DNA of 64,000 nucleotides from Haloquadratum walsbyi J07HQW2 (GTDB lineage Archaea; Halobacteriota; Halobacteria; Halobacteriales; Haloferacaceae), in contig NZ_KE356561.1 of the NCBI RefSeq assembly GCF_000415985.1, positions 311,660 through 375,659 on the forward strand, given 5' to 3'. Shown in pieces: positions 28,713 through 55,994 of this stretch. A program made the position numbers and the translations under genes. A model generated the notes under the pieces. The model was not told where the DNA came from, did no database searches, and saw only the letters and a list, made by a program, of their open reading frames with translations. Positions within the stretch are counted from its first letter, which is position 1; every line of letters starts with the position of its first letter.

Positions 28713-28753
28713 GTTTGATATTCTATTCATGCACAGTGTAAGTGCTGAAAAAG

Positions 28754-28784
28754 TTTAAATAATCTAATAGTAACAATATTGTTA
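28754..28784 (+). promoter_or_regulatory. Promoter with palindromic operator before the secretion ATPase gene
   Basis: A TATA-like TTTAAATAA (28754-28762) lies ~31 bases before ATG 28793. Between them is a perfect 14-bp palindrome, TAACAATATTGTTA (28771-28784), overlapping the expected transcription start. It shares the half-site TAACAA/TTGTTA with the inverted 19-bp motifs at 21720 and 21897. A bound protein would block transcription of the ATPase gene. Confidence 0.55.
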
Positions 28785-28792
28785 ACTACTCT

Positions 28793-33517: not shown

Positions 33518-35553
33518 CAAAACCAACTCACTTGGAAACAACAGAGCCACCTGAACCACGAGGTTCACGATCTGATAAGAGCAACTGGATACGACGAATC
33601 GATAACGTCGCATACTCAATCTTTGGAGACTTCTTCAAGCGACGTAAAGACACTACCTTTGAGTCGATTGGAACGTCACTTCAGCAAGCACGAATACCAA
33701 TTAGTTCGGATCTCTACTTATCACGAATTGCATTTGTTACTATAATTTGCACCGCTGTGATTGCAGTCATTCACTTAGGGTTCGCAATTATACTTGGGGT
33801 CTCAGGAATCGGAGCAACTTTCAGTTCACTTCCTGCACCCTTGGACATTTTTGTTGGGACTGTTTTACTTCTTCTCACATCTCTCATATCTACTGGGATT
33901 TCACTCGGAATAGGAATTGCCTATCCGTATACACGATTGTCTCTCATAATCTCAGATAGAAAACGAAAAATTGACAACATGATACCATTCGCAACCACCT
34001 ATCTGTTTGCACTTACACGCGGAGGAATGGATTTCGTTGAAGCACTTCGAACACTCGCTGAATCAGACGATGCTTATGGAGAAGCTGCAAAAGAAACCCA
34101 ATCAGTTATTCAAGATATGGATTACATGTCAATCGATCTCCCACGAGCAATGCGGAGGGGGTCACAACGATCGGCTTCAACAAAATTCTCTGAATTTATG
34201 GATGATCTTGTTGCGATTATTGATTCCGGAGCAGATATGTCACCATTTCTCGAATCAAAAGCTGAAGAATTCCTTGAGCAAAATGAACGTGAACAAGAAA
34301 ACTTCCTGGAGACGTTAGCTCTTCTCGGAGAGGTTTATGTGACCGCATTTGTCGCTGGTCCGTTATTTTTGATCATTATTACCGTCGTTATGGCAATGCT
34401 TGGAGGTTCTGCAATAACTCAATTATATGGTATTGTGTATGGACTACTTCCAATGATGAATGTCGCATTCTTCATTCTTATCGACACAATCACTATTGAT
34501 GAAAGCAAGCGAAACCGAACTATCTACACTGAACGTGTCAATAAGTCAATTGATGAAGTGACAGACGAATATAAAGAACAGATTGAAGCTAACAGTCGCA
34601 TTCAAAATATAATCAAAGCTAAAGAATATCGTGAAAGTAGCGAGTATATTCGAGAGCCGCTTTCCTGGCTTCTGGATAAACCATTTCGAACATTATACAT
34701 TACCGCTCCAATTGCGTTTTTATATACACTCGTTGCAATCATTATTCAACCGTACCCACTATCCTTTGAGGGTCTGAGTTCATTTCCTGTTGAAACAACG
34801 GTTACATACTTGCTTATTCCACTATCTATCTCGTTAATCCCATTCACTATTTTTTACGAGATCACAACAAGACGTAAGAGGAAAATACTCAATCGATTCC
34901 CTGACTCTCTCAAGCAACTTGCATCATCAAACTCAATTGGGCTTACTCTCACAGAATCTCTCAGAGCGACTTCAGACGCAACAAGCGGTGTTATCGGAGA
35001 AGAATTCAATAAAGTAAGTAACGATATCCGGTGGTACAATAACATCACAGAGGCACTCGTTAGTTTTGCAAATCGAATCAAAATTGCCGAAGTTGCTCGT
35101 ACTGTTAAACTTGTTACCAAATCAAATGAAGCGTCTGGTGACATCTCAGGAGTACTCGATATCGCTGCTAAGGACGTTACAAAACGGCAGATTCTTCGAA
35201 AACAAAGATTCAATGAAATGACCATGTACACTGTCGTTATTATCATATCATACGTTGTTTATCTCTTTGTCATCGCAATGCTCGACGCCGCATTCCTGTC
35301 AGAAATAGCTGCAATCAAAGAAAGTACCGCTGGGGCAACGTCAACAGGGGCTGGAAGCAGTAGTGGATTTGGAACAAATCTTTCATCACTTCCAATAGAT
35401 CTCTTCCGCATGGTGTTTTATCACTCGGCGCTTCTTCAAGGGCTTGGATCTGGACTTCTTGCTGGACAACTCGGGCAAAATGATGTTAGGGCAGGAATAA
35501 AATATGCTATCGCCCTCATGACGATTTCAACTATTGTTTTCTTGGTTATATAG
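33511..35553 (+). CDS. PilC/TadC-type platform membrane protein (type II secretion F domain)
   Basis: A 680-aa protein. Two T2SS-F-like modules: residues ~140-290 (MIPFATTYLFALTRGGMDFV, ...) and ~445-600 (FPDSLKQLASSNSIGLTLTE, ...), each followed by paired hydrophobic helices, with additional spans near 70-140 and at the C-terminus; about 8-9 in all. This is the usual double-module form of archaeal pilus and archaellum platforms. The ATG overlaps the ATPase gene by 7 bases, showing co-translation. It forms the inner-membrane base on which the ATPase acts. No preflagellin or archaellum genes are nearby, so this is a pilus-type rather than archaellum system. Confidence 0.9.
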   Translation: MVTKPTHLETTEPPEPRGSRSDKSNWIRRIDNVAYSIFGDFFKRRKDTTFESIGTSLQQARIPISSDLYLSRIAFVTIICTAVIAVIHLGFAIILGVSGIGATFSSLPAPLDIFVGTVLLLLTSLISTGISLGIGIAYPYTRLSLIISDRKRKIDNMIPFATTYLFALTRGGMDFVEALRTLAESDDAYGEAAKETQSVIQDMDYMSIDLPRAMRRGSQRSASTKFSEFMDDLVAIIDSGADMSPFLESKAEEFLEQNEREQENFLETLALLGEVYVTAFVAGPLFLIIITVVMAMLGGSAITQLYGIVYGLLPMMNVAFFILIDTITIDESKRNRTIYTERVNKSIDEVTDEYKEQIEANSRIQNIIKAKEYRESSEYIREPLSWLLDKPFRTLYITAPIAFLYTLVAIIIQPYPLSFEGLSSFPVETTVTYLLIPLSISLIPFTIFYEITTRRKRKILNRFPDSLKQLASSNSIGLTLTESLRATSDATSGVIGEEFNKVSNDIRWYNNITEALVSFANRIKIAEVARTVKLVTKSNEASGDISGVLDIAAKDVTKRQILRKQRFNEMTMYTVVIIISYVVYLFVIAMLDAAFLSEIAAIKESTAGATSTGAGSSSGFGTNLSSLPIDLFRMVFYHSALLQGLGSGLLAGQLGQNDVRAGIKYAIALMTISTIVFLVI

Positions 35554-35626
35554 TCATAACTTTGATACTAGATTTTAATTAATGTATCTAGATATCACAA
35601 AACGATACACTCGAAACATAAGAAAA

Positions 35627-35634
35627 TTTATATA
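35627..35634 (+). promoter_or_regulatory. TATA box for the pilin gene at 35660
   Basis: TTTATATA lies 26-33 bases before ATG 35660, favouring that start over the upstream ATG at 35582. Confidence 0.5.
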
Positions 35635-35659
35635 TTTGTTATTACATTATACAGTTGAT

Positions 35660-36025
35660 ATGTTTAGTATCAAGAACCGAGCAGAAGACGGTGTATCGCC
35701 AGTTGTCGGTGTAACACTCCTTATCGGAGTAACAGTAATTCTCGCAGCAGTTGTTGGTGGATTTGTTCTTGATCTTGGAAACAATGTTCAGGAGAATCCA
35801 CAGGCAGGTGTCTCATTCAGTCAGGACGGTACTAATGTAAGCGTTCAAGTTGTTTCAATGGAGAACGCAGACTCTCTTGACGTTCGTCTAGACGAAACTT
35901 CACAGGGAAGTCTTGCATCTGTTGGTGACTCTCTTGATGTAGTTGGATCAAGCGGTGCCGATATTACAATTGTCGGAACTCTAGACGGCAAGGACGCTGT
36001 CCTTCAGACATACACTGTCGAATAA
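35660..36025 (+). CDS. Type IV pilin-like protein
   Basis: A 121-aa protein starting MFSIKNRAEDGVSPVVGVTL. The leader has R-A-E-D-G before V-S-P-V-V-G and the H-domain VTLLIGVTVILAAVVGGFVL, the textbook haloarchaeal pilin signal. The head is beta-rich (GVSFSQDGTNVSVQVVSMEN). It is the best-conserved pilin of the cluster and sits directly after the platform gene, so it is a good candidate for the major subunit. An upstream ATG (35582) would add 26 residues that are not leader-like. Confidence 0.85.
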   Translation: MFSIKNRAEDGVSPVVGVTLLIGVTVILAAVVGGFVLDLGNNVQENPQAGVSFSQDGTNVSVQVVSMENADSLDVRLDETSQGSLASVGDSLDVVGSSGADITIVGTLDGKDAVLQTYTVE

Positions 36026-39981: not shown

Positions 39982-42123
39982 ATGAAATATCAAAAGTTGG
40001 GATTATTGGTAGTAATTCTGTGTTTTACCTTGAGTTTTGGATTTCCAACTGTTTCTGCTGAGCCTATTTCTGAGTGGGTAAATGAGACAAAAACAGATCC
40101 AACATACTCACAGATTACAGAGCCGAAAAGGTATTTCAGTGGCGATTATGAAATTCGACGCTCCGGAGATTTTGTCGTTGATTCAGACATACATATCAAT
40201 GATGTAAATACTGACCCAGCGAACTTCACAATTGATGCGTTGAGTGCGGCTAAAGATAATCCGTATGCAGTGTACGATGTTCAGTTTTCGAAGTATCCTT
40301 CAGAGGTAAGTACGTGGAATCAAATCAATTCAAACCAGTATCGAGATTTATCTCGGTATACAACGGTTGCTCCTGGAAGAACAATTGAAACTGCTGAATC
40401 AGGAAGATACGTCAAAGATGCTGTCGTTGGATTTCATTCGATAACTCCCAGTGTGTATGTACATACAACTGTATCGACTGAGAGTAATTCATTCGTTGAA
40501 ACGGTGAAGGAACTAAATCTTGGAGTTGAATTTGATGAAGTCGAACATCGAGTAGGATCCGAAGCGAGTGTGAATGCCATTGTTGATTACCGATTAGATA
40601 TTCCAGAGGATAATAAACGAGAATTTCGTTGGATTGAGTACGATGTCGAGACAGCAGACATTACACGGACTATAATAAGATCAACGTCGTGTCGGTCTGA
40701 ATCAGTATGTATTCTTGATTCGACTCAAAGAGATGATGAAAATCCTCAATTTCGCTCTGTTGAGTTTCCTGAGCCGGGGAGAAATGATATTATTGCTACA
40801 GCAGAGGTTTATGTAGAAATTGAGAAAATCACACGTACTCGTGATGAGGAATGCGAAACAGTTGATGCTGACAGAGTATGTAGCTATACCCCGTGGAAAG
40901 TAGTTGATATTGATATCTTAACCGACGAGGTTGAGACAACGACTTCAAGAGAACTTATTGTTGAATCACCGAGTATTACTGTTGAGAAAGCAGTGTTCCC
41001 GAGTGGAGCTGAAGAATTCTACATTACTGATTTAGACCCCGATGAGTGGAAGTATATGTCGTATGTTTCAACTGGCGAACGAGACACACAACGAGCGTTA
41101 AGTAGTTCGTGGCAGTATTTTTCATCTCGCGATGCTCGCTGGGATACCAGTTGTGAGATTGGTGAAGGGTTCTCGTTAAGTGTAAATAATTGTCTATTGT
41201 GGTCTGGAGACATTTCCACTGGGACTTCAAATGTGAATCCTGTAGAATCAGATATTCGACCATTGTGGGTTCATGCGTTTCCTCAAAAGACATTATTACA
41301 AAATGATCAGAGTATTGGAACAGTGATCAGAGATATCCCAGAAGAGACAGAGAAAGATGCTCCAGTGTTACAGTCTCACCCGACGTGTAAGTCTGGATTC
41401 TGTTCGTGGATATTTATTGATAATGTATTAAACACTCAATCAAATACTAATTCAAAAACGTATACAACACCGAGAGAGATTGTTATTCGACGAGCACCAC
41501 AATATTCTGGAAGTGTGTTCACGACAGGAAAGATAAATCGAGAAATAACAGATGCGATAGAAGTTACTGGATTAGTTCCAACAGCAACGACTCATCAATC
41601 ATTTACACGAGTTCAACCCGTAGTAAAGACACAGATTAATGCAAAATCAGTAATTGATCCAACGATGTCTTCAGAAGAACGAACCCGAGCAAGTCGTCGT
41701 TTGGGTGTCTCACAGGTTTCTGAAGACGAAACAATTCTACAAATATCCTTGTTTGAGGCAGAGTCTGACCGACCGATTTCATTATCGGGGCGGAATGAAA
41801 CTGTCGTCGTTGATGCATTCAATACTGATTATAGTTCAGAAGTGACGCTAGATGGTACTGGGAGAGGTGTAACTGTTGTGCCATATGATTCGTACGAAAT
41901 TCGGTATAATGCACAGCCATGGTATACGCTTCAAGATTCACAGACTGCATATTTATCTGCAGAAGCGTCCACTGATGGATCACAGGTTGAGCGATCTTCT
42001 TTGCTTTCGCAATTGATTGGGCTTGTAGGAGTGTTTGGAACTGTTATAGTTGCAAGTTTGTTTGTCGTTCGTGCAATGGGGTTGCAAGTAACCCTTCGTG
42101 AGTTAACTCGATTACTTAGATAA
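39982..42123 (+). CDS. Large secreted protein with C-terminal membrane anchor
   Basis: A 713-aa protein. Signal peptide LGLLVVILCFTLSFGFPTVSA at the start; then ~620 residues of beta-rich ectodomain with sparse, paired Cys (TSCRSESVC, DEECETVDADRVC, CEIGEGFSLSVNNC, CKSGFC). A final helix (LIGLVGVFGTVIVASLFVV) precedes a short basic tail. The disulfide-like pairs are unusual for a haloarchaeal cytosolic protein and fit an extracellular fold. It starts 34 bases after the VirB2-like gene and is followed by the VirB6-like gene, so it is probably an outer component of the channel or mating-contact structure. Not recognised as a named family. Confidence 0.65.
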   Translation: MKYQKLGLLVVILCFTLSFGFPTVSAEPISEWVNETKTDPTYSQITEPKRYFSGDYEIRRSGDFVVDSDIHINDVNTDPANFTIDALSAAKDNPYAVYDVQFSKYPSEVSTWNQINSNQYRDLSRYTTVAPGRTIETAESGRYVKDAVVGFHSITPSVYVHTTVSTESNSFVETVKELNLGVEFDEVEHRVGSEASVNAIVDYRLDIPEDNKREFRWIEYDVETADITRTIIRSTSCRSESVCILDSTQRDDENPQFRSVEFPEPGRNDIIATAEVYVEIEKITRTRDEECETVDADRVCSYTPWKVVDIDILTDEVETTTSRELIVESPSITVEKAVFPSGAEEFYITDLDPDEWKYMSYVSTGERDTQRALSSSWQYFSSRDARWDTSCEIGEGFSLSVNNCLLWSGDISTGTSNVNPVESDIRPLWVHAFPQKTLLQNDQSIGTVIRDIPEETEKDAPVLQSHPTCKSGFCSWIFIDNVLNTQSNTNSKTYTTPREIVIRRAPQYSGSVFTTGKINREITDAIEVTGLVPTATTHQSFTRVQPVVKTQINAKSVIDPTMSSEERTRASRRLGVSQVSEDETILQISLFEAESDRPISLSGRNETVVVDAFNTDYSSEVTLDGTGRGVTVVPYDSYEIRYNAQPWYTLQDSQTAYLSAEASTDGSQVERSSLLSQLIGLVGVFGTVIVASLFVVRAMGLQVTLRELTRLLR

Positions 42124-42167: not shown

Positions 42168-45098
42168 ATGGCTAATTTCATCTTAAATTCAATTGAAACA
42201 TTACTTGATGGATTAATTAGTCTTCTTGGGAGTTTTATTCGAGTAATGTTAGAATGGTTGCAAGATCAAATAACGAATACGCCATATCCTGGTGAATCTA
42301 TTGGGTCTCCACAGATTTTTACTGGTCCATTGGAAGGTGAGCCATTTTATGATGTGTATGAGGTGTATACAGCAACGGGTGGGATTCAAGATACGGCATT
42401 GATTTTGTGGTTTATTGGAGTGTTTTTCGTGTTTTTGGGAGGAACCGTGCAACCATTGTTACCTGGATCGATCGACACTGAAGAATCCAAGAGAAAGTTA
42501 TTCGTGGCATTTCTCGGTATTGTATTCTGGTGGCCAATTGCGACGTTCTTGCTTGCCTTTAGTGATGTAATTGCTGAACTTTTGTATCAACAAGCATTGA
42601 CATACAATAATGTTTCAGCAAATCAAGGAGTGTTCGTTGGAATTTATGACTTAGTCATCGGTGGGCTACAAGATCAGGGAACAGGAGGGTCTGCATTTGC
42701 GTTACTCGCAGCGATCGTGTTTGTGTTAGAGGGAATTATCTATCTGATAGTTTCTGTATTGTGGTATATTCGGTATTTTTTTATTTATATCTTAACACCA
42801 TTAATGCCGCTTGTCTTTGCGACATGGAGTTTTGGACTTCCAGGATTGCAACCAATTTCACGATTTGCAGGAAAAGTACCGAGACAGTGGGTAACACTTG
42901 TATTTTTAACGATACCTGCGGCTATTTTAACGATATTTGCAACATCGGTTGTCGGAATCCTTGTTGAGCAGATGAGTGATTCGGATCAGGAGCTGAATGG
43001 AACTGGTGATATTTCTACTAATTATCAGATTGAATCGTCGTCAGCAGCTGCGACTCAAAACCCAGAGGTTATGTTTGATCCACAGGTCCCTCTTGCATCC
43101 TTACAACCGATAGTGGCTTCAAGCACAACATCTGATACAATTATTAATACGCAATCACAGTTAATTGATGGACTACAGACAGGAGCTGAAGAAGGAGTAA
43201 TACTATTACTTATCACTGTGATGGGATTAGCTATTCCGTTATTGATCATGGCAACTCCGTGGCTCATGGTCAAATTTGTCACTGGCTCTATGATGACTGG
43301 ACTGGGTGCTATTGTAAACCCTGTTGGAGCGGCGTCAAATGCATTAGGTGGTCTTGGTAATTTTACTAAGTCCGTTACGTCTAATGAAGTCTCGTACACT
43401 GATGAAGAGGAAGAGAAGATTAACAAGCAAGCCAAGCTTGAAGCAGAAATCGACGAATCTGGTCGTACCTGGAATGATCTCACAGCAGATGAAGAAACGA
43501 TCTTGAGTGCAAGTAATGATGCACAATCGAAAGCAAAGAACCGAGCTGAGACAAATATGTTTTCTGATATGCACAATCGAGTGAGTAGATATGGTGCAAG
43601 CGCTGCAGGAGTTGGTGCGGTTGTATCTGATGCAAATGAAATGTCTCACCGCTCTATGTCAGCTGCACGTTCGAAAGGAGGATCAGCGGCATCACAAGCT
43701 GGGAAGTTTACGACAGATATGACTTCAAATCCAGCAGCTGTGAGGAAGGGAATCTCAGAAAATATGAAAGCGAGAGCCAAAACAAGAGTTGCCGGTGCTG
43801 CCGCTCCATTTGCAAGGACACCTGGATCGATGGTGAGAAAGACACAATCTGCAATAGATAGAGTTAGTCTGCGTAAAGAAACCGCTAAGCAGAAACAGGC
43901 AGGAGATTTCAAATCAGAATATGGACATGATCCAGTGTCTGTTAAACAGACACTCAAATCAGAGTACCACGGAGTTTCTGAAGATGAGTTAGATACTGAC
44001 TTTCTATCTCCTGAAGAGCGGGCATTCTTGAATGCTCATGGGTATTCCGTGAGAGACATGCGTGATGGTGGCTATGCAATTGAGCGTGACGAATCATTGA
44101 ATCCAGCTGCTGATCAGACAGCTGAGATATTCGATGTGTTAGAATCAATTGAATATTCCTCAGACGGTCCGAACGCACACCTGAATAATAAAGGAATTGA
44201 ACGATATATCTCAGGTAACGCAAAAACATCGTATCAAGTCGAAATTGAAGATCCACAGTCAGACGACGCAGATGCGACAACAACGAAGACACTGAGTGTC
44301 AATGAATTATTGAATAATACTCACGATATTGAGGAACTTGATGCAATCAATACAATAAGTGGACACGATTTATCTGTTGAGGCAAAAGAAGAAGCTATCA
44401 ATTCTGCAATTAATCAAGATAGTGATAAATTGGATCAAATTACACAGGCAAAGATGAAAGCGAGACTTGAAGGGATGGGTGCAGAGGTTCACGATGAACT
44501 TGCAAAGATGTATTCACAAAGTCAAAGCAAGAGTAACGCTGGCGATGCTGGAACTACTACTGTAGAGACTGATGAAATCAGAAATACGTTGGAAACGGTC
44601 GGTGTAAGCGACAGAATAATCAATGTGGTTGCTGATACTACTGACGCTCCTCCTGTTCAAGATACATCAGTCACAGGATCTGTGGATATGGCTGTTGATA
44701 CAACAGACAATATAGCTCAACAGACGCCTGTTAATGAAGAGCCATCGGTTAATGTAACTATCGACAATGATTCAGCTACTGATACAGCAGGTGAAAGCGA
44801 TACATCAGATAACATTGACACTGACAAAACAATACAGGGGTATGATATATCAGTTGATGTTGGTAGTAGTGCTGCTAATTCAGTAATGAGTCAAAAAATT
44901 AATCAGCAGAAACAACAACAGAAGCAGAAGCAGAAAACTAAGACTCCAAAACAGACTGAGCAGGAGCGAATGAAAGAAAACTTGAGACAGTCACATCCTG
45001 ATCACGGTGGGACACAGGATGGATTCATGAAAACGTTCAGAGAATTTAAACAATTCCGGAAAAGGGAACATAATGAACACTATCACAAAAAGCTATAA
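42168..45098 (+). CDS. VirB6/TrbL-like polytopic membrane protein with C-terminal J-like HPD segment
   Basis: A 976-aa protein. Residues ~1-400 carry about 6-7 helices (LILWFIGVFFVFLGGTV, LFVAFLGIVFWWPIATFLLA, LLAAIVFVLEGIIYLIVSVL, YFFIYILTPLMPLVFATWSF, VTLVFLTIPAAILTIFATSV, GVILLLITVMGLAIPLLIMA), the design of VirB6/TrbL channel proteins of type IV secretion. A long soluble region (~400-976) is rich in A, S, K and D/E. Near the end are a Q/K-rich stretch and MKENLRQSHPDHGGTQDGFM, with HPD at 943-945, like helix II, loop and helix III of a J domain. J domains recruit Hsp70 (DnaK); here it may couple chaperone to substrate or assembly. Helix I of the J domain is not evident, so the match is partial. 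Confidence 0.7.
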   Translation: MANFILNSIETLLDGLISLLGSFIRVMLEWLQDQITNTPYPGESIGSPQIFTGPLEGEPFYDVYEVYTATGGIQDTALILWFIGVFFVFLGGTVQPLLPGSIDTEESKRKLFVAFLGIVFWWPIATFLLAFSDVIAELLYQQALTYNNVSANQGVFVGIYDLVIGGLQDQGTGGSAFALLAAIVFVLEGIIYLIVSVLWYIRYFFIYILTPLMPLVFATWSFGLPGLQPISRFAGKVPRQWVTLVFLTIPAAILTIFATSVVGILVEQMSDSDQELNGTGDISTNYQIESSSAAATQNPEVMFDPQVPLASLQPIVASSTTSDTIINTQSQLIDGLQTGAEEGVILLLITVMGLAIPLLIMATPWLMVKFVTGSMMTGLGAIVNPVGAASNALGGLGNFTKSVTSNEVSYTDEEEEKINKQAKLEAEIDESGRTWNDLTADEETILSASNDAQSKAKNRAETNMFSDMHNRVSRYGASAAGVGAVVSDANEMSHRSMSAARSKGGSAASQAGKFTTDMTSNPAAVRKGISENMKARAKTRVAGAAAPFARTPGSMVRKTQSAIDRVSLRKETAKQKQAGDFKSEYGHDPVSVKQTLKSEYHGVSEDELDTDFLSPEERAFLNAHGYSVRDMRDGGYAIERDESLNPAADQTAEIFDVLESIEYSSDGPNAHLNNKGIERYISGNAKTSYQVEIEDPQSDDADATTTKTLSVNELLNNTHDIEELDAINTISGHDLSVEAKEEAINSAINQDSDKLDQITQAKMKARLEGMGAEVHDELAKMYSQSQSKSNAGDAGTTTVETDEIRNTLETVGVSDRIINVVADTTDAPPVQDTSVTGSVDMAVDTTDNIAQQTPVNEEPSVNVTIDNDSATDTAGESDTSDNIDTDKTIQGYDISVDVGSSAANSVMSQKINQQKQQQKQKQKTKTPKQTEQERMKENLRQSHPDHGGTQDGFMKTFREFKQFRKREHNEHYHKKL

Positions 45099-45129: not shown

Positions 45130-46215
45130 ATGTCAGTTGATAGACGAATACCCGAGTCATTAGGAACAACAGATACACTATTAGATAATGCCCCGCTAGT
45201 TGGGACTGTTGAAGTCACTGACGGGTTTGTCGCTTTTGGACCTGCAATGTCTGCGTTTATTATTTCAAATCAAGTTTTCCCGGCAGATTATCAGTGGATG
45301 GGCTTCGTTGTTGGATTTATTGTCGCATTAGTTGGTCTCGTGTTTCTTCTTGGAAAACCAAACTATATCTCGTTATCAGAATGGCTGCGTAATTACATAG
45401 AGTATAGAAAACGTCCACGGACAACTCACAAAGCGCTTCAAACAGACGGTGGATACAGTACAGGAAGCAAACCAATTACGAATAGTCCTGATACAAGAAA
45501 TACTACATTAATTGAACAAATCTACCCCGAAGCAAATGCGATTGAACGAACAGATGGAGCTGTCGTTGGAATGGTTGAACTCGGGGGGATCAATCTTGAT
45601 ACAGCATTAAAATCACGTTGGGAACAAGCTTCTGGAACGTTAGCTAATTTCTTTAATACACAGATACAATATGAAATCCAATTTTATCTTCCAATGAGGA
45701 AGTTTGACCCATCGGGTCAAATCCAGTTATACGAAAATCGAGCTGATTCGGCTGTTGATGAAGATAATGCATTATTGCTTGAATACCTTGATGATCGACG
45801 ATCCTGGTTCTATGGATTGTCTTACGACTCATATATTCGAGAATGTTATGTCATAGTGGCTGTTGATAAATCAGATGTATTGAACGAACAAATGGGCGTT
45901 GACTCTGACAGTGTATTTAATTTTATTACCGAAACAAAATGTGGTGAGCTTCTCTCTGATGCATTTGTTGGACTCCGTGGAACGCACACGATAAGCCGAT
46001 TAACAGGGTATGAGATGAAAGAACGACAACTACAGGAGTTGAATCGGCGCTTAAATGAAATAAATTCAGGCATGGGTTCTGGAGAATCAATGGCAACAGA
46101 GATTATATCAGCGGATAAAGCAGGAATCCTTTTGAAAGAATATTGGGAGGGCGTTGACATCCCAAAACTCGAAGGAGAGAATCTCATTCGCGAAAAACCA
46201 ATTGTCACAAAGTAA
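45130..46215 (+). CDS. PrgI/VirB3-like membrane domain plus VirB4 N-terminal domain
   Basis: A 361-aa protein. Two helices (GFVAFGPAMSAFIISNQVF and WMGFVVGFIVALVGLVFLL) near the N-terminus resemble the PrgI/VirB3 group. Residues ~130-361 (IEQIYPEANAIERTDGAVVG, RWEQASGTLANFFNTQIQYE, RECYVIVAVDKSDV) match the layout of the N-terminal domain of VirB4/TraC ATPases. It ends 6 bases before the ATPase gene, so VirB3-VirB4N and VirB4C are encoded as two coupled proteins. It probably anchors the ATPase at the membrane. Confidence 0.65.
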   Translation: MSVDRRIPESLGTTDTLLDNAPLVGTVEVTDGFVAFGPAMSAFIISNQVFPADYQWMGFVVGFIVALVGLVFLLGKPNYISLSEWLRNYIEYRKRPRTTHKALQTDGGYSTGSKPITNSPDTRNTTLIEQIYPEANAIERTDGAVVGMVELGGINLDTALKSRWEQASGTLANFFNTQIQYEIQFYLPMRKFDPSGQIQLYENRADSAVDEDNALLLEYLDDRRSWFYGLSYDSYIRECYVIVAVDKSDVLNEQMGVDSDSVFNFITETKCGELLSDAFVGLRGTHTISRLTGYEMKERQLQELNRRLNEINSGMGSGESMATEIISADKAGILLKEYWEGVDIPKLEGENLIREKPIVTK

Positions 46216-46221
46216 GTAATT

Positions 46222-48228
46222 ATGAAACTACCATTTATTCAATCCTCGACTGAGAATAATACCGATCAAACCGAAGACAGCACTGAGCAGAATAAAGCAA
46301 CATCAGGGTCTCAACGCAATGGGATTCCGAATATCGGACGTTTTCATAAGGATATTATTTCACCATCTGGGATTTATGAAGAAGTATCGCAAGCAAAGGT
46401 TGGAAATCATCATGTGAAAACGTTCTTTATTAATGGATGGCCAGATGCTCCAAATACACTATTTCTTGATAAGATTTTGAAATCGGTCCCAGTTGAGAAT
46501 GATATCTCGATTCACGTGAGTCCATATCAATCAGGTGAGCTTATGAGATCACTTGGCAAAGAAGTTGAGCAAGCAAGAGCTCGATTGAATACTCGTGAAG
46601 GAGGTGTGCTAACGAATCGACGGAAACAAAAAGAGTATGAGCAAACAGCAGAGATTTATCAAGCGTTAGAGCAAACGAATACAGAATTATTCGACGTTGG
46701 GATGTACATCACAATCCGTGGTGAATCAAAGGAAGAACTAAATGAAGCAACAGATGTGCTTTTGAAGGCAATGCGGTCTGCTCCAGCATTACTTCAACCA
46801 GCACCACTAGTACACAGACAATTAGAAGGAATGCAAGCTGTTTCTCCAATTGGAGCAGACACAGTTGGATATAAAACAGAGATGATGGGTGGTGCAATTG
46901 GGACAATGCTCCCGTATTCTTCAAAACGGATTATTGAAGATACTGGTGTAGATTTTGGTGTTCATGCGGGAAACAATTCACCCGTGATCGTCGATCGATG
47001 GACGCGAGAAAATGGATATAACCAACTCACAATCGGAAAAATTGGAAGTGGCAAATCCTTTTCTATAAAATTGAATATGTTGCGCAGTTACGCGTCACGA
47101 GATGATGTGTTATTATTCATACTAGATCCTGTTGGAGGATTTGACAATATTGTAACTGCACTCAAGGGAGAACGGGTCACTGTTGGTGGAAAGCTTGGAC
47201 TAAATCCGATGGAGATCCGACCAACACCAGAACGAGTAATGAAGCGAGCGTCTGATATCGATCCATATGCTATGAAAAAGGCAACTGTGATTGAATTTTT
47301 TGAAATGTATTTCTCTCAACGAGGGGTCTCATTAGATGATTCACGAGGTGTTCTTGAAACCGCAGTTGAAGCAGCATACTTTGAAAACGGAATTACTCGA
47401 GATATATCTACACATGATAATCCCTCTCCAACAATTAAGAATGTCATCAGGATCGTAGAACTCATGGCTGAAGAACCGAGTGAATTTGTCGATGCCGACT
47501 CTGATAGGCTCAGAGACCGAATTGAAACACAGGCAGCACGTTTGATAACTGGGTTCACGCAGTTCAAAGAGGGTGGGCAGTTTGAGAATCTTGCTGGAGA
47601 GTCAGAACTAGACATTCGAGATAACAACGTTACTTACTTCGATTTAACTCAAAAGGAAGGATCCGGAGAAATTGGATTGATGATGACGCTGTTGTTCTCT
47701 GAAGTATACCAAATTGCGAAAGAAACAGACAAGAAGGTGATGTTCATTATTGACGAAGCTCATTACCTGATGAAAGATGCGGAAACTCTTGACTTTCTCA
47801 CTACTGCAGTCCGCCACTCTCGCCATCTTGACCTCTCGATTAATTTCATTACACAAACTATTGAAGAGTTCTTTAGTCATCACAAAGCACAGTCTATTGC
47901 ACAGCTATGTTCATTAAAACTATTTCAGCGAACAGAGTCAGATATCCCTCCAGATATCGCAGACACATTAGATCTTAACCAAAGTGAAATTAATTTCATC
48001 CAGACAGCACAGGCAGGGTCACAAGAGTTAGGATACTCTGAAGCTCTTCTTGGGGTCGGATCGATGGGATATGTCCCGATTAGAGTCATTGCAAGTGATC
48101 TTGAAGAGAATATAATTAATTACGAGGATCAGTTTGAGGCCGATGAAGCCGAATTTATTGGAGATTCAGTGAATTCTGAAGAGACTGAAGATGAAAACAC
48201 CGAAAACGCCGAGAGTTCTAGAGAATAG
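46222..48228 (+). CDS. VirB4/TraC-type type IV secretion ATPase
   Basis: A 668-aa protein. Walker A TIGKIGSGKSFSIKL (~270-285), Walker B KVMFIIDEAHYLM (~504), then TAVRHSRHLDLSINFITQTI and IAQLCSLKLFQRTESD (motifs of the HerA/FtsK-VirB4 group). The N-terminal ~230 residues supply the second half of the VirB4 N-terminal fold, including the 'ALEQTNTELFDVGMYITIRG' type strand. The C-terminal tail is acidic. Known family role: energising pilus biogenesis and substrate movement through a type IV secretion channel. Its presence beside VirB6- and VirD4-like genes is the strongest evidence for a conjugation-type apparatus in this cluster. Confidence 0.88.
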   Translation: MKLPFIQSSTENNTDQTEDSTEQNKATSGSQRNGIPNIGRFHKDIISPSGIYEEVSQAKVGNHHVKTFFINGWPDAPNTLFLDKILKSVPVENDISIHVSPYQSGELMRSLGKEVEQARARLNTREGGVLTNRRKQKEYEQTAEIYQALEQTNTELFDVGMYITIRGESKEELNEATDVLLKAMRSAPALLQPAPLVHRQLEGMQAVSPIGADTVGYKTEMMGGAIGTMLPYSSKRIIEDTGVDFGVHAGNNSPVIVDRWTRENGYNQLTIGKIGSGKSFSIKLNMLRSYASRDDVLLFILDPVGGFDNIVTALKGERVTVGGKLGLNPMEIRPTPERVMKRASDIDPYAMKKATVIEFFEMYFSQRGVSLDDSRGVLETAVEAAYFENGITRDISTHDNPSPTIKNVIRIVELMAEEPSEFVDADSDRLRDRIETQAARLITGFTQFKEGGQFENLAGESELDIRDNNVTYFDLTQKEGSGEIGLMMTLLFSEVYQIAKETDKKVMFIIDEAHYLMKDAETLDFLTTAVRHSRHLDLSINFITQTIEEFFSHHKAQSIAQLCSLKLFQRTESDIPPDIADTLDLNQSEINFIQTAQAGSQELGYSEALLGVGSMGYVPIRVIASDLEENIINYEDQFEADEAEFIGDSVNSEETEDENTENAESSRE

Positions 48229-48436: not shown

Positions 48437-49702
48437 ATGTCTGAGTTTCATCCAATCAAGATTAACGAGCAATTCGCTGAAGCACTTAGTGGAAAGACAA
48501 TATATACACCCAGTAAATCACAGCTCATCAAGATTAATCCACCTAAAAAGAATGAAGGAATAGACGCAAGTATTTCATTATATCGAGCGTTGTACGATTC
48601 ACAAAATAATAGAATACAGAGTTATAGTCCAGAGAGTGAATCAGAATCAAAATCAGTAATTGGAACAGAAATTTGGTACGATGAGGAAGAACTGAAGTTT
48701 ATGTTTTATTCTCCAAATAGTGATTTATCTCGGTTACAGAGGAGGCATATTGATGGATTCTTTCCATTATGTCGGATTGAACGTCAGAGGAGTAGATTTC
48801 CCTCAGTTACTGCTGGAGATTATATCACAGGTGGAAACGTATGGTTACAAAATCACTATTTTGAACCGATTCGACAGAAAAAGCACGGTATTAATACATG
48901 GAATGATCCGTATCAAATGATTTTCAATGGAATTGATACTCGTGATTCAACACGAACTTTGGTACAGGTATTATTGAAGCCAGCAATCAAGAATTGGGCT
49001 CGAGAGGCTGATACTGAGATACAAGATTACGCACAGAAATTTCTTGAACCAATCACAGAGTCTAAGTATGGTGGTCTTATCCAGAATACATCCGAACGAA
49101 CACCAGAGGAAAAGAAATACGCAAAGACGATCATGAAACAGGTCGATCAGCAGGCATTTCATGTCAACATCCGATTTGTAGTGATTGCTGATTCACCGAA
49201 TGATGCAACAACACATGCTGTTGAAATTGACACTTTATTTCAAAACGGGTATGTCGAGATGGGAGGTCAAACGTTAGTAACTGATCCTGCCTCGACTCTA
49301 GATGAAACAAAAGAACTTGTTCGAAGGATAGCTAAAAGAGAAAGTCTGAATATGACGCCTCCCTCGGGGTTCTTAGACGGACTTAATCATATCAGAGACA
49401 CTGATCCAACAAGATACATGATCATGAGTATTAATGAACTAGCTGGAATTACGCATCTCCCTACTGCAGACGAGGTCTCAAGTAATAGTATCTCATGGAC
49501 GGATGTATCGATTACAGGAGTTCTTCCGCCAACAGCAAAGTCTCATGATCCTGTATCTGTCGAAGAACGTCAGCGACAGCTGAAAACGTGGGCGAGGGAC
49601 GGAGACAACATAAAAGAAAAGTTTGGCATCACTGAAGAGGACTCAATCGTTGAAAATCCACTTGGAGGTGACAATAATAGTCATACTGGCAAAGATAACT
49701 GA
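48437..49702 (+). CDS. Companion (N-terminal module) of the coupling ATPase
   Basis: A 421-aa protein. Mixed alpha/beta, with no membrane helix or P-loop. Strand-helix patterns such as VIGTEIWYDEEELKFMFYSP, FHVNIRFVVIADSPNDATTH and RYMIMSINELAGITHLPTAD, plus the phrase 'LAGITHLPT', recall the N-terminal module of HerA-/VirD4-like ATPases and of VirB4, where L-x-x-x-x-H-L-P-T occurs just before the ATPase domain. The gene ends 2 bases before the ATPase gene. I therefore read the pair as a split coupling protein: this part forms the N-terminal module, the next the motor. Confidence is moderate. Confidence 0.55.
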   Translation: MSEFHPIKINEQFAEALSGKTIYTPSKSQLIKINPPKKNEGIDASISLYRALYDSQNNRIQSYSPESESESKSVIGTEIWYDEEELKFMFYSPNSDLSRLQRRHIDGFFPLCRIERQRSRFPSVTAGDYITGGNVWLQNHYFEPIRQKKHGINTWNDPYQMIFNGIDTRDSTRTLVQVLLKPAIKNWAREADTEIQDYAQKFLEPITESKYGGLIQNTSERTPEEKKYAKTIMKQVDQQAFHVNIRFVVIADSPNDATTHAVEIDTLFQNGYVEMGGQTLVTDPASTLDETKELVRRIAKRESLNMTPPSGFLDGLNHIRDTDPTRYMIMSINELAGITHLPTADEVSSNSISWTDVSITGVLPPTAKSHDPVSVEERQRQLKTWARDGDNIKEKFGITEEDSIVENPLGGDNNSHTGKDN

Positions 49703-49704
49703 TT

Positions 49705-52700
49705 ATGGGATTAAAAGATATTTTTACTGAAGAAATCGAGGCACAGAGTGATGAAAATTCAGAAACAGAGACGGAGACAGGTGCAGAAACTGAAATAGCT
49801 GATTCAGCTGCTTCAATTGCAAGAAAAGCCGAATTAGAACAAAAGTACTGGCCATATGCATTTACAGCGACTGGACATAATGTCAAAATCGGCGGAAATG
49901 AAGTAATGATGGCTGATGCAACAGACTATCGTGGAAAGCCAGAGTCATATGCCGGTCAGTGGGTACGAGAGATGTTTGAGGCTCATCAGTTTAGAGAAGA
50001 AGAGAACTCTTGGATGGGTTATACTCGTGACAATGTGAAAGGAGTTCAAGAAGCCGGAGTCGAGCATGAGTCACTATTTCGCCATCTTGCCTTTTTCGGG
50101 ATTACTGGATATGGTAAAACAACAGTTATTCAAAATCTCATGGTGCAATGGGCATTGAAAGGACATGGATTTTGCTTTATTGATCCGAAGGAGAATGATA
50201 TCTATACATTACTTGATATGCTCCCTGAAGATCGGCTAGACGATGTTATCTGGGTTGAACCGGGATCACCAGATGACAAGATTGTTGGATTCAATTATTT
50301 TGATACAAATCATGAACATGGAACTGCACAGCATGAAAATGAAGTTACAGAGATAACTGAGGACTTTGTATCGCTTCTCAAAGCCTCGGATCCAACGTGG
50401 GGAGCAACGATGGATGCGGTTGCAAAAGCGATTTCACGTCAGCTGATTCGGTCTGAGGAGACGTTTACAATCGGAGACATGTATCGGATCATCACTGATG
50501 ATGAGCAGCGAGAACAATTCGCTGAAGAGTTTGGTGATGATACTGAATCGATGTTTCTTGATCGGCTCACAGAATTTTATAATGAAAAAGAGTTTGACCC
50601 ATTGATAAAGCGATTTCGGGATTGGCTCGACAATCGGAATACTCGAGAAATTGTCTCTCATCGTAATTCAAAGATTGATATTACCGAAGTTGTTGAGGCA
50701 AATAAAATCCTGTTGGTCAGACTTGCAAATATTCCGTCTGAGGACATTCAATCGCTTATTACAACATCAATTGTTCGTCGTATTTGGTCAACTGTGAAAG
50801 CTCGTCAAAGTATTCCAAAGTCAGAGCGGAAGCCATATTTCGTAATTATGGACGAGTTTAATCAGCTCTCAAAGGGAGCGATGAACATCAAAAACATGCT
50901 CAGTAAAGGGAGGTCATTTCGATTAAGTCTCACAATAGCAACACAGGCTCCAACGCAACTTCCAGATGATATCATGGAAGAGATTCTAACGAACGTTGAT
51001 AACTTGTGTACATTTAATCCTGGGGCGAATCCGGTTGCTGTTTCTCCGCTTGCGAGTCGGTATGATCTTCATCCGTCAGAACTCCAATCGCTCAATAGAT
51101 ACGAACTACTTGCAAAGTTGAATGTCGGGACTAAGTCGACTGAAGGATTACTGATTAATACATTTCCACCATATCCTCCACGAAGAACTCGAGCTGAGTC
51201 AGAGAAAGTTATCGAACGGTCACTTGAAAAATACGGAGTCGAGAAACTCGATGAAGATGCTGAAGATGATGGGTTTGCACTCGATGATGACGCAGAGGGT
51301 GATACAATTAGTGTGACAGACGACATTTCCGTTCCAGTTCATCAGATATTAGAAAGCATCCATACTGCAGGTGTTCGATACGGCACAGAAACGATCAAAC
51401 AGAAAACAGGGTGGGTATCACCTGAGAATATCAGATCTGAACTTGAAAAATACGCGACTGATATTTCAAGTGGTGTGTTATTCGATAATCTCATGGAAAT
51501 GGTCCCACGATCACTCATCAACGAGTTAGAAACCAGTAATTCTCGTTTCTACTACCGATTAACCCCTGAAGGAGAAACACAGACATTTATTCAAGATACT
51601 GGTGCATCGCAGACTGGAGGGAAGAGAGGACATCGTCGGTTACTCTCACGCGGATATGATGCATTCATTAAGCTAGGATATGACGTTCAACTTCCAGCAC
51701 AGGACGGAGAAGAGCAGCCAGATGGAATTGCAAAACCTCAAATAAATCCCGCTGAAGAAGCAAGTTCGATAACTGAAGTAGAGCAATTAACCAATGCACT
51801 TGAGACGAATCATCCTCGGCTCTATGATTTGTTTAAAGATAACCACATCTCAATCGAAGCTGAGTCAACGACAACGACAAAACCAAAGCAAACGATCAAA
51901 AACCTTGCAAAGGCAGTGAACAAGAATAGACACTGTGTATTTCTTGTTAAAGATGGAATAGAAAAAGACGACTTCTATTACTACGCTAAAAGTATCTATA
52001 CGATTCTTGAAGAACCGAAATTTGTTAATAACAAACAACACCGTAATCGACGATTTTATAATAAATCAACAGGCAGTGAACTCACACTCAATAATGGTAG
52101 CAAAGCCCTTCGAAAACGCAGAGAATCAGATACTGGACGAACTGCACAAACAATTTGGAAAGAGGAAGGGCATGACGTCATTCTTGAAGATCCTGATGAT
52201 GGACCTCCACTCGCCGTATTCGATGATATTGATGATCTTAAAGATCCATCACCGTCTAAAGTTCCATTTCATTTTGAGTATATTCAAAACCAATCAGAAT
52301 ACGTTGTTTACGATAATAAAAACAACATAATAGTAACATATGATACAAAAGAGAAACTCAAAAAAGAATATGATGTTATTCCCGGACCAGTAATCCCCAG
52401 TCATGTGTTCTCGAATGGAGAGTATCCATCGCAGGATGAGTGGACGATAGTTGTTATCCCAAGTGATACTATCGACGCTGGACCACAGATATTTAATGGA
52501 TATGAGTCAGATGACAAGACTGAAAATACAGAACCATTGCTTGAAGATCATGACCCGTTTGATCCGATAAAGCATACTGCCTCAAAAGTAGACAGTTCAA
52601 CACAAAAGTTAACGGCTGACGTTGTTGCTGATTCAGAGAAAGTATGCAGTAATCCAAAACCAACGGATTCTGAGTATAATCCTGCCAAAGACAACAGTAA

Positions 52701-53133
52701 TTTTCACACGGGATACAATGAAGATGGGATGGATAATGCATATACTGGTGGAAGTGCCCGTGAAAAAGATAAAAACGGAGACCTCGATTCGTATGAGATT
52801 ACGGAGTCAAAACCAGATGCATCAGGCACTGAACAAAGTAAATCAACTGATATCGATCAAACGCAGCGAGTAAATCTGGAAAATGAATCAGCAGGCTCAA
52901 CAGTAAATGTAGAGGAGACAGCTGAAACTGAGGCTGAGCATATGCCTGAATTTGAATCTGAGTTAGACGTCAATAAGCAGTCGGATGATGTAGACAAGGA
53001 TAATGATGAAAATAGCAATGAGAATACTAAGACTGTTGATCGATTTAAATCAGGACACTACGCAGCACAACGCACTAGCTTACGCTCTAAAAACACACAG
53101 TCAGATGATACTGAATCAGATGACGATCAATAA
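49705..53133 (+). CDS. VirD4/HerA-type coupling ATPase with nuclease-like C-terminal module
   Basis: A 1142-aa protein. Walker A FFGITGYGKTTVIQN (~130-143), Walker B PYFVIMDEFNQLS (~376), then LSLTIATQAPTQLPDDIMEE (sensor motif), as in TraD/VirD4 and HerA. The pocket lacks N-terminal membrane helices, so it may be soluble and recruited by a partner. After it come a winged-helix-like segment (VHQILESIHTAGVRYGTETI, ~545-565) and residues ~645-750 with GHRRLLSRGYDAFIKLGYDV, EQPDG and ISIEAESTTTTKPKQT. This pattern (PD, then E-A-E-x-T-x-x-x-x-K) resembles a PD-(D/E)XK nuclease core. The last ~250 residues are acidic and disordered. Role: deliver DNA to the channel, perhaps also cutting it. The nuclease call is inference. 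Confidence 0.75.
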   Translation: MGLKDIFTEEIEAQSDENSETETETGAETEIADSAASIARKAELEQKYWPYAFTATGHNVKIGGNEVMMADATDYRGKPESYAGQWVREMFEAHQFREEENSWMGYTRDNVKGVQEAGVEHESLFRHLAFFGITGYGKTTVIQNLMVQWALKGHGFCFIDPKENDIYTLLDMLPEDRLDDVIWVEPGSPDDKIVGFNYFDTNHEHGTAQHENEVTEITEDFVSLLKASDPTWGATMDAVAKAISRQLIRSEETFTIGDMYRIITDDEQREQFAEEFGDDTESMFLDRLTEFYNEKEFDPLIKRFRDWLDNRNTREIVSHRNSKIDITEVVEANKILLVRLANIPSEDIQSLITTSIVRRIWSTVKARQSIPKSERKPYFVIMDEFNQLSKGAMNIKNMLSKGRSFRLSLTIATQAPTQLPDDIMEEILTNVDNLCTFNPGANPVAVSPLASRYDLHPSELQSLNRYELLAKLNVGTKSTEGLLINTFPPYPPRRTRAESEKVIERSLEKYGVEKLDEDAEDDGFALDDDAEGDTISVTDDISVPVHQILESIHTAGVRYGTETIKQKTGWVSPENIRSELEKYATDISSGVLFDNLMEMVPRSLINELETSNSRFYYRLTPEGETQTFIQDTGASQTGGKRGHRRLLSRGYDAFIKLGYDVQLPAQDGEEQPDGIAKPQINPAEEASSITEVEQLTNALETNHPRLYDLFKDNHISIEAESTTTTKPKQTIKNLAKAVNKNRHCVFLVKDGIEKDDFYYYAKSIYTILEEPKFVNNKQHRNRRFYNKSTGSELTLNNGSKALRKRRESDTGRTAQTIWKEEGHDVILEDPDDGPPLAVFDDIDDLKDPSPSKVPFHFEYIQNQSEYVVYDNKNNIIVTYDTKEKLKKEYDVIPGPVIPSHVFSNGEYPSQDEWTIVVIPSDTIDAGPQIFNGYESDDKTENTEPLLEDHDPFDPIKHTASKVDSSTQKLTADVVADSEKVCSNPKPTDSEYNPAKDNSNFHTGYNEDGMDNAYTGGSAREKDKNGDLDSYEITESKPDASGTEQSKSTDIDQTQRVNLENESAGSTVNVEETAETEAEHMPEFESELDVNKQSDDVDKDNDENSNENTKTVDRFKSGHYAAQRTSLRSKNTQSDDTESDDDQ

Positions 53134-53309: not shown

Positions 53310-53999
53310 ATGACACTCAAGACATTCACCAATCCTGATTATAGTCAATTATTACCAAATACGTATTCAACAGGTATCGACGGACTAGATCTTGATTATT
53401 TACAAGGAATACCTTACGGTAGTGTGGTTGGAATTATTTCTGACCCACGTATACAGTATGAGTTGTTTAATTATCATCTTGTTCATACTGATCGACCGAC
53501 TGAGTACGTCAGCACGGTAAGACCCAGTCGACTGATTACACAAGATATTGAATCAATGGGAGCTATTACAGATGGAATTCACATCAAGGACGTGTTTGGA
53601 TCCCGAGAGACGGCAAAAAATATTATTCTTAAACATGTTGGTCGAATTGAAGAAGGTCACAATTATATTCTTGATACAGTCGGGTCATATTATTTACTTG
53701 AGGAGAATCCTGATATGTTTCTTCAGACTCTCAGAAACGTGTACACAACAGTTCATGATAAAAACGCTATTGCGTATCTAAATTTCACTAATATTGCACC
53801 GGCAGCGTCGTCAGAGCATATTCAAGAGGCAATTGGAATGTGTGACGGGATATTTAATTTAATACAGGAGGTTAAAAGTCGAAACATTGAAACATTCCTT
53901 GAAATCAAGCGAATGCGAAAGCGGTCGTATCCATCTGAGCGTATTAAAGTTGAAACAAATAATATCCTCACGATTGATACGACACAAAATATTGCATAA
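53310..53999 (+). CDS. RecA/KaiC-like (FlaH/HTR-like) protein with degenerate P-loop
   Basis: A 229-aa protein. The N-terminus YSTGIDGLDLDYLQGIPYGS followed by VVGIISDPRIQYELF is the start of a KaiC/RadA core: T-G-I-x-G-L-D followed by G-x-x-x-G-S-x-x-x-I. The P-loop G-K-T is replaced by S-D-P-R. Later strands (NYILDTVGSYYLL, AIAYLNFTNIAPAAS) follow the RecA fold, with a D in the Walker B position. FlaH and 'HTR-like' proteins of archaea are such relatives, often binding without hydrolysing ATP. Position at the end of the secretion cluster suggests a regulator of the pilus or coupling ATPase. Not proven. Confidence 0.65.
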   Translation: MTLKTFTNPDYSQLLPNTYSTGIDGLDLDYLQGIPYGSVVGIISDPRIQYELFNYHLVHTDRPTEYVSTVRPSRLITQDIESMGAITDGIHIKDVFGSRETAKNIILKHVGRIEEGHNYILDTVGSYYLLEENPDMFLQTLRNVYTTVHDKNAIAYLNFTNIAPAASSEHIQEAIGMCDGIFNLIQEVKSRNIETFLEIKRMRKRSYPSERIKVETNNILTIDTTQNIA

Positions 54000-54439: not shown

Positions 54440-55985
54440 GAGAAAGCCCACGACTTTACTCGTGGGATGAATCCGACAACACACGACACGAACCACGAGC
54501 GATAGCCACTCCGAGTCTCCCACGTTAATCCATACCGTTCGGCACGAACATTTCTTAGACTGTCGCGATGAAGCGAACCAACCACTTCGATGTTCGCCTT
54601 CGCTCTATCACAGAGCGTGAGGTGTTCGTTGATGGGTGGATGCTTCTGCGAGTCTCTGGGATGAGACGAACTACGCTCGCCGCCAAGCCTTCCTCGCAGA
54701 CGATGAAAGCGTCTGGGATGCTGACACCGGCTGTCTCGAAGGCAAATACAAAGCCGTCCTCAGCAGTAGAGTAGAGTAGTGTTGCCCAGCAAGTCATTCG
54801 GAAAAACAGTGAAGCGTGGCGATCGTTCTTCGACCTCAATGAAAAGTACCACGCCGGAAAAGTTGATGCGAGACCGTCGCCTCTGGGGCAACGAGGAAGG
54901 GGAGGGGGACGGGTGCTGCGTACCTACGTTCGCAGCGATCAGTACACCATCGGATATGGGAACCGCTCCCGGCTCGAAGTGCCGATTGGCTCCGAACTCA
55001 CAGACGAACTCGGGGTGAATCGGAATCAGCGTCTTCGTGTTGAAATTGCAGGCGACCCGAAGTGGAGCGGCAAACACAACGGGCTTGAGATTGTGTACGA
55101 CGAACTCGTAGACACGTTCAGGGCTTTCCAACCAGTCACTATCGATGATTCTCGACTGGATTCACCACTGGCTTCAGAAGAAGCCGCTCTGGACGTGGGT
55201 GCGAACAACCTCGTCGCCTGCACAGTATCGATCGGTTCTCAATTCATATACGACGGACGCGACCTGTTCGAGCAGTTCCGTGAAATCACGGAACAAATCG
55301 CGCACTATCAGTCCCTTCTCGAAGACCAGCGTGAGTCCAGCAAGCGCATCGACCGCTTGTATCGAAAACGAAACGCACGAATCAGCGCAACCACGCCCAA
55401 GACAGTCTTGTGCGTGCCCTCGTTGAATGCTTGCACGATGAAGGCGTTTCAACGCTGTACGTTGGCGACACCAAGGGTGTTCTCGGCACGCACTGGTCGT
55501 GGTCGCCTCGTGTGACCGAGAAAACGCACAACTTCTGGGCGTACCGCCGGTTCATCAACCGCCTCAAGGACGTGTGCGAAGAATACGGTATCATGCTCGA
55601 GGAAGAATCCGAGGCGTGGACGAGTCAGGAGTGCCCTGGATGTGGCAAGCGCGAAGGGACTGTTCGTCACAGGGATTCGTTGACGTGTCCGTGCGGGTTT
55701 GAAGGACACGCTGAGTTGGTGGCGTCCGAATCGTTCTTGAGACAGCAGAACACCACGGTTGGGTCGATGGCACGACCCGTGCCGTGTACCTCAAGTGGAC
55801 CAAACACAGTTGGCGGGAACATCAGAGCCCGCCCTCCATCGCAGTGGAGACAACGGCAAACGAGGAATACACAACCCAGAATAGAGTCCCACAGCGAGTG
55901 GGAATGTCGCTCTCGGGGAAGCTCAGACCGATTGAGACTCCCACGAGAGGAATCCCACGAGTTCAGTCGTGGGTGGATGTCAAAG
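54440..55985 (+). mobile_element. Degenerate IS200/605-family (IS1341-type) element
   Basis: The left end shows hairpin CCCACGA-CTTTAC-TCGTGGG (54447-54466), the right end CCCACGA-GTTCAG-TCGTGGG (55954-55973), identical stems as expected for IS200/605 termini. Between them lies one broken tnpB gene and no tnpA, so this copy would need a transposase in trans. It terminates the AT-rich transfer region on its right side. Confidence 0.8.
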
Positions 55986-55994
55986 ATATGCTGA
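54568..55994 (+). pseudogene. Broken TnpB (RuvC-like, RNA-guided nuclease family)
   Basis: Several frames must be joined. ATG 54568 gives MKRTNHFDVRLRS; after shifts come [20 protein letters not shown] and then a 120-aa stretch ending in the RuvC-I motif [19 protein letters not shown] (catalytic Asp). Another shift near 55390 leads to [20 protein letters not shown], the RuvC-II Glu in [12 protein letters not shown], a zinc finger CPGCGKRE...CPCGFEGHA and the RuvC-III region AELVASESF, where the usual Asp/Asn is not clear. Interrupted at about four points; surely inactive. Related in type to the fragments at both window ends. Confidence 0.8.

Follow-up and report, generated by a model that had tools for sequence, protein, structure and literature searches.

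A predicted PD-(D/E)XK nuclease domain fused to the coupling ATPase of a haloarchaeal DNA-transfer block: a candidate relaxase

The window analysed here is a 64,000-nucleotide stretch of the genome of Haloquadratum walsbyi J07HQW2 (contig NZ_KE356561.1, positions 311,660 to 375,659), and it contains a block of predicted DNA-transfer genes that includes a 1142-residue coupling ATPase with a large C-terminal extension. This extension, which carries a predicted nuclease domain and is a candidate for a relaxase fused to its coupling protein, is the subject of this report. The protein and its parts lie at the following window positions.

49705-53133, forward strand: fused coupling protein, 1142 residues, ATG start, composed of a VirD4-type motor, winged helix, predicted PD-(D/E)XK nuclease, β-rich domain and acidic tail
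49987-51246, forward strand: VirD4/TraG-type motor, residues ~95-514 (PF10412; phrog_5156; Walker A 132-139, Walker B at 378)
51331-51594, forward strand: winged helix domain, residues ~543-630, with LTPEG at its end (AlphaFold model, VIA-align, PF03551 below cut-off)
51622-52014, forward strand: predicted PD-(D/E)XK-fold nuclease domain, residues ~640-770 (conservation, predicted models, VIA-align)
51631-51633, 51721-51723, 51856-51858, 51862-51864 and 51910-51912: codons of the nuclease residues H643, D673, E718, E720 and K736, respectively
52015-52494, forward strand: conserved β-rich C-terminal domain, residues ~771-930 (alignment and model)
52495-53133, forward strand: acidic low-complexity tail, residues 931-1142, 25% D+E, non-conserved

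The motor matches PF10412, a type IV coupling protein family, over residues 123-420 (E 2e-7), and phrog_5156 covers residues 95-514 (E 2.7e-39). Walker A reads G132-ITGYGK-T139 and Walker B, YFVIMDEF, begins at residue 378. The protein thus exhibits the RecA-like motor, both Walker motifs, the family match and the operon with VirB4 that characterize VirD4/TraG coupling proteins, and no transmembrane segment is predicted in it. The winged helix of the AlphaFold model aligns with those of MarR, PadR and RosR at Z scores of about 8 by VIA-align, and its match to PF03551 (E 1e-4) falls under the curated cut-off of that family. A preliminary description of this DNA had pointed to PDG and E-A-E-x-T past the motor, and both the open reading frame and these residues are present as described. 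The motif residues are GYDAFIKLGYDV, Q-P-D673-G, I-E718-A-E720-S-T and K726-P, in the order H643, P-D673-G, E718-A-E720 and a basic residue at 736, with an insert of ~40 residues separating the aspartate from the glutamates.

AlphaFold2 modelling of residues 536-930 with 28 sequences gave a predicted local distance difference test score (pLDDT) of 85.7 and a predicted template modelling score (pTM) of 0.82. The modelled order is winged helix, helix, strand, a second strand with D673 at its start, the insert helices, a strand bearing E718 and E720, helix and strand, which is the topology of the PD-(D/E)XK core (α-β-β-β-α-β, with the aspartate starting strand 2 and the glutamate in strand 3). 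The nearest VIA-align neighbours of the nuclease-only model are VRR_NUC (4qbn; Z 7.5, root-mean-square deviation 3.2, 83 residues aligned) and Hjc (1gef; Z 7.5, root-mean-square deviation 3.0, 88 aligned), followed by TnsA (1t0f; Z 6.0) and also Can2, EcoT38I, EcoRV and homing endonucleases; nearly all rows listed are restriction-endonuclease-fold proteins, at moderate Z scores of at most 7.5. With the whole-domain model, the winged helix dominates the matches of both Foldseek and VIA-align. A search of BFVD with the domain model returned nothing at E < 0.001, the sole match of the domain profile among PDB sequences was a chance ribosomal one, and scans of the domain against Pfam and NCBIfam gave no significant match, with only an AHJR-like family at E 0.11. 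Because the neighbour list is consistent and the residues described below are invariant, we judge the modelled restriction-endonuclease fold to be secure despite the moderate Z scores. The nuclease core proposed in the preliminary description, which had suggested structure prediction as a check, is supported by the model, its restriction-endonuclease neighbours, and the conservation of the aspartate and both glutamates.

That conservation was assessed in two alignments. The first comprises the query and 29 homologues, ranked by full-length match with no use of the motif, and H643, Q666, D673, E718 and E720 are invariant in it (30/30); lack of the aspartate and glutamate in related proteins, which would have spoken against the nuclease, is not what is observed. 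With ~20 invariant columns per 400, we roughly estimate that three named positions would all be invariant by chance with a probability of ~1e-4. The second set, of ~96 proteins, reaches distant relatives of 640 to 3400 residues and shows the histidine in 95/95, the aspartate in 93/93, each glutamate in 87/87 and lysine or arginine at position 736 in 86/86. Some of its loci were retrieved by a pattern containing EAE and some sequences are duplicated under two locus identifiers, so that the 30-sequence set is the unbiased one. The residue between the glutamates varies (A, V, I, F, S), making E-x-E the conserved unit. The nearby lysine that had been taken as part of the core, K726, is also variable (34 K, 44 R and 9 other in the larger set) and is not upheld in that role; the basic residue at 736, on the next helix, is therefore the better candidate. 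The conserved aspartate, glutamate and lysine (or substitute) expected of PD-(D/E)XK nucleases are thus all found, with the basic residue at 736 instead of beside the glutamate.

The domain is widespread. The full-length protein as query finds matches in 130/292 haloarchaeal genomes, and the fused domain occurs in 67/145 (~46%) at E 1e-5, including a few weak, partial matches. An initial contig scan with the single full protein gave no matches; a scan with alignment A1 gave 52 loci, which were not used alone for conservation because the pattern held EAE. Relatives in other families of the same phylum carry PD and VEIETTT in coupling proteins of 840-900 residues that adjoin VirB4. Size and composition vary among the more distant proteins. 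Haloarchaeal coupling proteins of 2400-3400 residues (L106-L111; e.g. L107:3370-13254, reverse strand) have the same motor and nuclease with further regions. Short haloarchaeal VirD4 proteins of 640-673 residues (L113:6440-8458, L114:6676-8679, L115:7215-9134) read LEAEHSTLSKP and largely lack the winged helix. A 520-residue protein (L116:6784-8343) has the nuclease domain, and the coupling-protein motor was not found in its 14-kb locus. Two stand-alone haloarchaeal proteins of 283-305 residues (L175:4875-5723 and L176:4380-5294, both reverse strand) match the domain model in its second half only, with the ExE strand and the β-rich C-terminal part.

The MOBC class of relaxases is related to the PD-(D/E)XK superfamily, and in one member, TraX of pAD1, the catalytic domain follows a winged helix (PMC12857230). 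A winged helix likewise precedes the nuclease core in the archaeal protein. The MobC protein of a CloDF13-type plasmid, which matches PF13814 (E 1.7e-22), reads LTPHG, PHRL, VPDA and FEVERTVK, and the archaeal domain reads LTPEG, GHRR, QPDG and IEAESTTTTK, the motif order being the same. An ExE pair in TraX, near residue 170, is reportedly described in work by Francia et al. from 2013. Comparison of the haloarchaeal and MOBC profiles by hhalign gave a score of 34.6 (E 5e-4, P 30%) with LTxxG, H, PD and ExE in register, and addition of the non-haloarchaeal relatives raised this to 37.8 (E 1.9e-4, P 48%). For the full-length profiles, the observed score was reached by 0/60 shuffled MOBC controls (haloarchaeal) and 0/100 (relatives added), and in an earlier run the score lay above all of 200 column and 200 block shuffles. 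A search for MobC in viral contigs gave no matches. At the level of sequence, membership of the MOBC class is marginal and not proven.

The genes that precede the coupling protein, and the pilus genes upstream of them, are as follows.

39982-42123, forward strand: 713-residue protein with transmembrane-like segments at both ends, in the conserved block
42168-45098, forward strand: 976-residue polytopic protein with 5 transmembrane-like segments, VirB6-like by position
45130-46215, forward strand: PrgI/VirB3-like membrane protein, 361 residues (weak PrgI match, E 0.09)
46222-48228, forward strand: VirB4-like ATPase, 668 residues, Walker A 272-279 (PF12846/PF19044 just under curated cut-offs)
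48437-49702, forward strand: 421-residue protein that corresponds, as a separate gene product, to the N-terminal domain of MOBC-linked coupling proteins in bacteria
28793-35553, forward strand: type IV pilus motor (T2SSE, 1574 residues) and platform (T2SSF, 680 residues), beside pilins at 28308-28712 and 35582-36025

The archaeal block runs from the 713-residue protein through the 976-residue, PrgI-like, VirB4 and 421-residue proteins to the fused coupling protein and is found on many plasmids. The last four genes are kept at 9/9 loci compared, and the first two at many. The 421-residue protein matches phrog_5156 (residues 23-201) and resembles the bacterial coupling proteins in their N-terminal domain (P 91% and E 1.2e-6 by hhalign; Embleya, E 1.2e-7 by hmmsearch), and on this ground its candidacy as an alternative relaxase was ruled out. 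The bacterial coupling proteins closest to the archaeal one come mainly from Streptomyces plasmids. Directly downstream of the coupling protein gene, 6/8 actinobacterial and Bacilli loci have a replication-relaxation gene (L094, L095, L096, L119, L121 and L122, on plasmids of Streptomyces, Embleya and Bacillus), with PF13814 confirmed for 3 of these genes, and the downstream MOBC-type proteins on bacterial plasmids have the same order of winged helix, H, PD and ExE/D as in archaea. One of the remaining 2/8 has no annotated replication-relaxation gene at this position, and the other has it 2.5 kb away on the opposite strand. No replication-relaxation gene is present there at two proteobacterial loci, and in a Chloroflexota locus the place is taken by an unidentified gene. 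On mobB-mobC plasmids the coupling protein and MOBC genes are likewise adjacent, and the order PrgI, VirB4, coupling protein, relaxase makes the archaeal block collinear with Embleya. Because the 421-residue protein corresponds to the bacterial N-terminal domain, the bacterial arrangement (N-domain plus motor, then relaxase) becomes N-domain, then motor plus relaxase-like domain, in archaea. This correspondence in gene order is, in our reading, the strongest argument for a common function.

The pilus operon (25053-36025) lies directly upstream of the transfer block, and its T2SSE ATPase has an N-terminal extension of ~1000 residues with three transmembrane-like segments. Its type IV pilus genes are unmatched at the nine other loci compared, so that pilus and transfer block may have joined here. 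Just 3' of the fused coupling protein gene, a DUF7125/KaiC-like RecA-fold protein (53310-53999) is also unmatched at the nine other loci. The region from 20000 to 54000 of the window has about 35-41% G+C and its flanks about 40-53%. The window yielded no tRNA, and the proteins scanned included no integrase. When relatives in the genus were searched with the right flank, no empty site could be resolved from the scattered, repeated matches. A 195-bp stretch (21720-21915) with 18-bp palindromes at its ends (ACTAACAATGTTGTTAGT and ACTAACAACATTGTTAGT) apparently lies outside long open reading frames, and an IS605/TnpB-type transposase at 54913-55994 occupies two overlapping frames and is probably disrupted.

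Relaxases of known families are scarce in this setting. The preliminary description had noted no relaxase in the cluster, which agrees with the absence of relaxase families among the scanned window proteins and of any match to PF03432, PF08751 or PF13814 in the whole J07HQW2 genome. Among haloarchaea, the HUH relaxase family PF03432 occurs in 10/145 genomes, mostly of one genus, and PF08751 in 0/145; PF13814 is above cut-off in 0/59, with two weak matches below it (E about 4e-4). One Natrinema plasmid, complete at 90 kb, encodes the fused protein; no relaxase is annotated on it, and its mobility type is given as MPF_T, non-mobilizable. Over the initial 50 kb of Haloarcula pNG600, the annotation lists no transfer genes. 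Papers from 2011 to 2025 describe archaeal relaxases as unknown or nearly so (PMC3158045, PMC9905601, PMC11389934, PMC12857230): a 2023 study found no homologues of bacterial relaxases (PMC9905601), and reviews of 2024 and 2025 still call them unidentified (PMC11389934, PMC12857230). There are two partial precedents, a conventional relaxase with TraD in Haloarcula (PMC6333295) and a halobacteria-dominated plasmidome with 41 MOBC-profile and 73 Replic_Relax hits, in passages that give no hosts (PMC8563766). In the open-licence literature, we found no account of such a domain being fused to a coupling protein.

Taken with the fold, the invariant residues and the gene order, these results suggest that the protein is probably a conjugative coupling ATPase with a C-terminally fused relaxase of the MOBC kind that nicks DNA for transfer. 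Several observations weigh against this. The nuclease-only model has a pLDDT of 70, and Foldseek found no match at E < 0.001 with it or with the whole domain. By hhalign, the probability lies at only 30-48%; for the nuclease half by itself, the score was 25.5 against a top shuffle of 24.1, a compact subset was exceeded by 1/60 shuffles, and 2/100 shuffles scored higher than the small non-haloarchaeal set alone. None of the 28 archaeal domains matched PF13814 in scans up to E 10, and the residues that follow ExE differ (E-x-E-R-x-x-K in the MobC set and E-x-E-T-x-T-x-K/R-P in archaea). Repeat searches for an origin of transfer (oriT), including one for a direct-repeat array, gave nothing convincing, and the J07HQW2 copy is chromosomal, its mobility being only putative.

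The fold and the motor are also open to other explanations. The domain could be a nuclease of the Hjc/VRR-NUC kind, non-specific or structure-specific, that trims or cuts the moved DNA and is not a site-specific relaxase. Its best structural neighbours are of this type, HerA-NurA end resection to single-stranded DNA has been proposed for archaeal (Sulfolobales) DNA transfer (PMC9905601), and the distant short versions are without most of the winged helix. We nevertheless consider a trimming nuclease unlikely, since the gene order is the MOBC arrangement, the full-length profiles align in register, and a DNA-binding winged helix stands directly before the nuclease in most members. More doubtful is the proposal that the fold has been kept as a DNA-binding or substrate-recognition module only, with another protein doing the cutting: proteins that have diverged strongly all keep the aspartate, both glutamates and the basic residue, which would be unexpected in an inactive domain, although extra C-terminal domains of other functions are common on coupling proteins (PMC7434980) and conservation does not extend to the lysine immediately following ExE. 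A defence system, in which a HerA-like ATPase and a nuclease act against incoming DNA, is very improbable. It is favoured by matches of the ATPase to HerA models and to PADLOC mad8 (E 1.2e-20) and by the partnership of HerA-type ATPases with nucleases. Against it, the protein's conserved block, which includes VirB4, PrgI-like and polytopic membrane proteins, lies on many plasmids, and the VirB4 neighbour also matches mad8 (E 9.6e-10), indicating that the match reflects the shared motor.

The earlier suggestion that the domain replaces a relaxase is thus plausible and can be made more specific, in that the domain looks like a MOBC-kind relaxase joined to the coupling protein; the MOBC class is known to have this fold (PMC12857230). 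The accompanying suggestion of double-stranded or nuclease-processed transfer is unsupported, MOBC relaxases serving ordinary conjugative and mobilizable plasmids. In a fused MOBC-kind relaxase, the winged helix would recognise oriT and set the nuclease there, and D673, E718, E720 and the basic residue at 736 would act with a bound divalent metal to nick one strand. The attached VirD4 motor would then pump the freed single strand into the channel formed by the VirB4, PrgI-like and VirB6-like proteins, possibly assisted by the neighbouring pilus, and the strand would be religated in the recipient. The protein itself is real, conserved and widespread; its relaxase function is likely, though unproven. 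The fused nuclease may be the archaeal enzyme that starts conjugation and that reviews call unfound. For the wider proposal, that the missing relaxase of haloarchaea and of related elements in the phylum sits in the coupling protein, is of MOBC ancestry, and both nicks oriT and pumps the strand, we regard the case as evenly balanced. A conserved and intact relaxase-like nuclease on the coupling ATPase of many haloarchaeal plasmids makes the relaxase gap directly testable, and the domain offers a new profile with which to search for conjugative elements of archaea. A fused relaxase would also explain the typing of such plasmids as MPF_T, non-mobilizable; it would make a separate relaxosome recruitment step unneeded, and the nicked end could stay held by the pump.

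Some relaxases have a DnaG-type region, and for this reason the match of the giant relative at L107 to the N-terminal domain of DnaG primase (E 2.5e-5, narrowly under the curated cut-off) is counted in favour of the relaxase reading. Among known systems, Hjc and VRR_NUC are the nearest structural neighbours of the nuclease domain (Z 7.5), yet they are small stand-alone enzymes with neither winged helix nor motor, and no sequence match between them and the domain was found. VirD4/TraG coupling proteins share with the archaeal protein the Walker A/B motor, the PF10412 match and the VirB4 operon, whereas the archaeal protein has its N-terminal domain as a separate gene (48437-49702), a large C-terminal nuclease extension and no predicted transmembrane segment. 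The domain differs from the MOBC relaxases (pAD1 TraX, CloDF13 MobC; Replic_Relax, PF13814) in its archaeal origin, the insert between D and E, the motif past ExE and the lack of a PF13814 match, and in being a predicted nuclease. It has in common with them the winged helix, a PD-(D/E)XK-type core and the succession LTxxG, H, PD[GA] and hydrophobic-ExE/D, and both are tied to a coupling protein, which the MOBC gene adjoins and to which the archaeal domain is fused.

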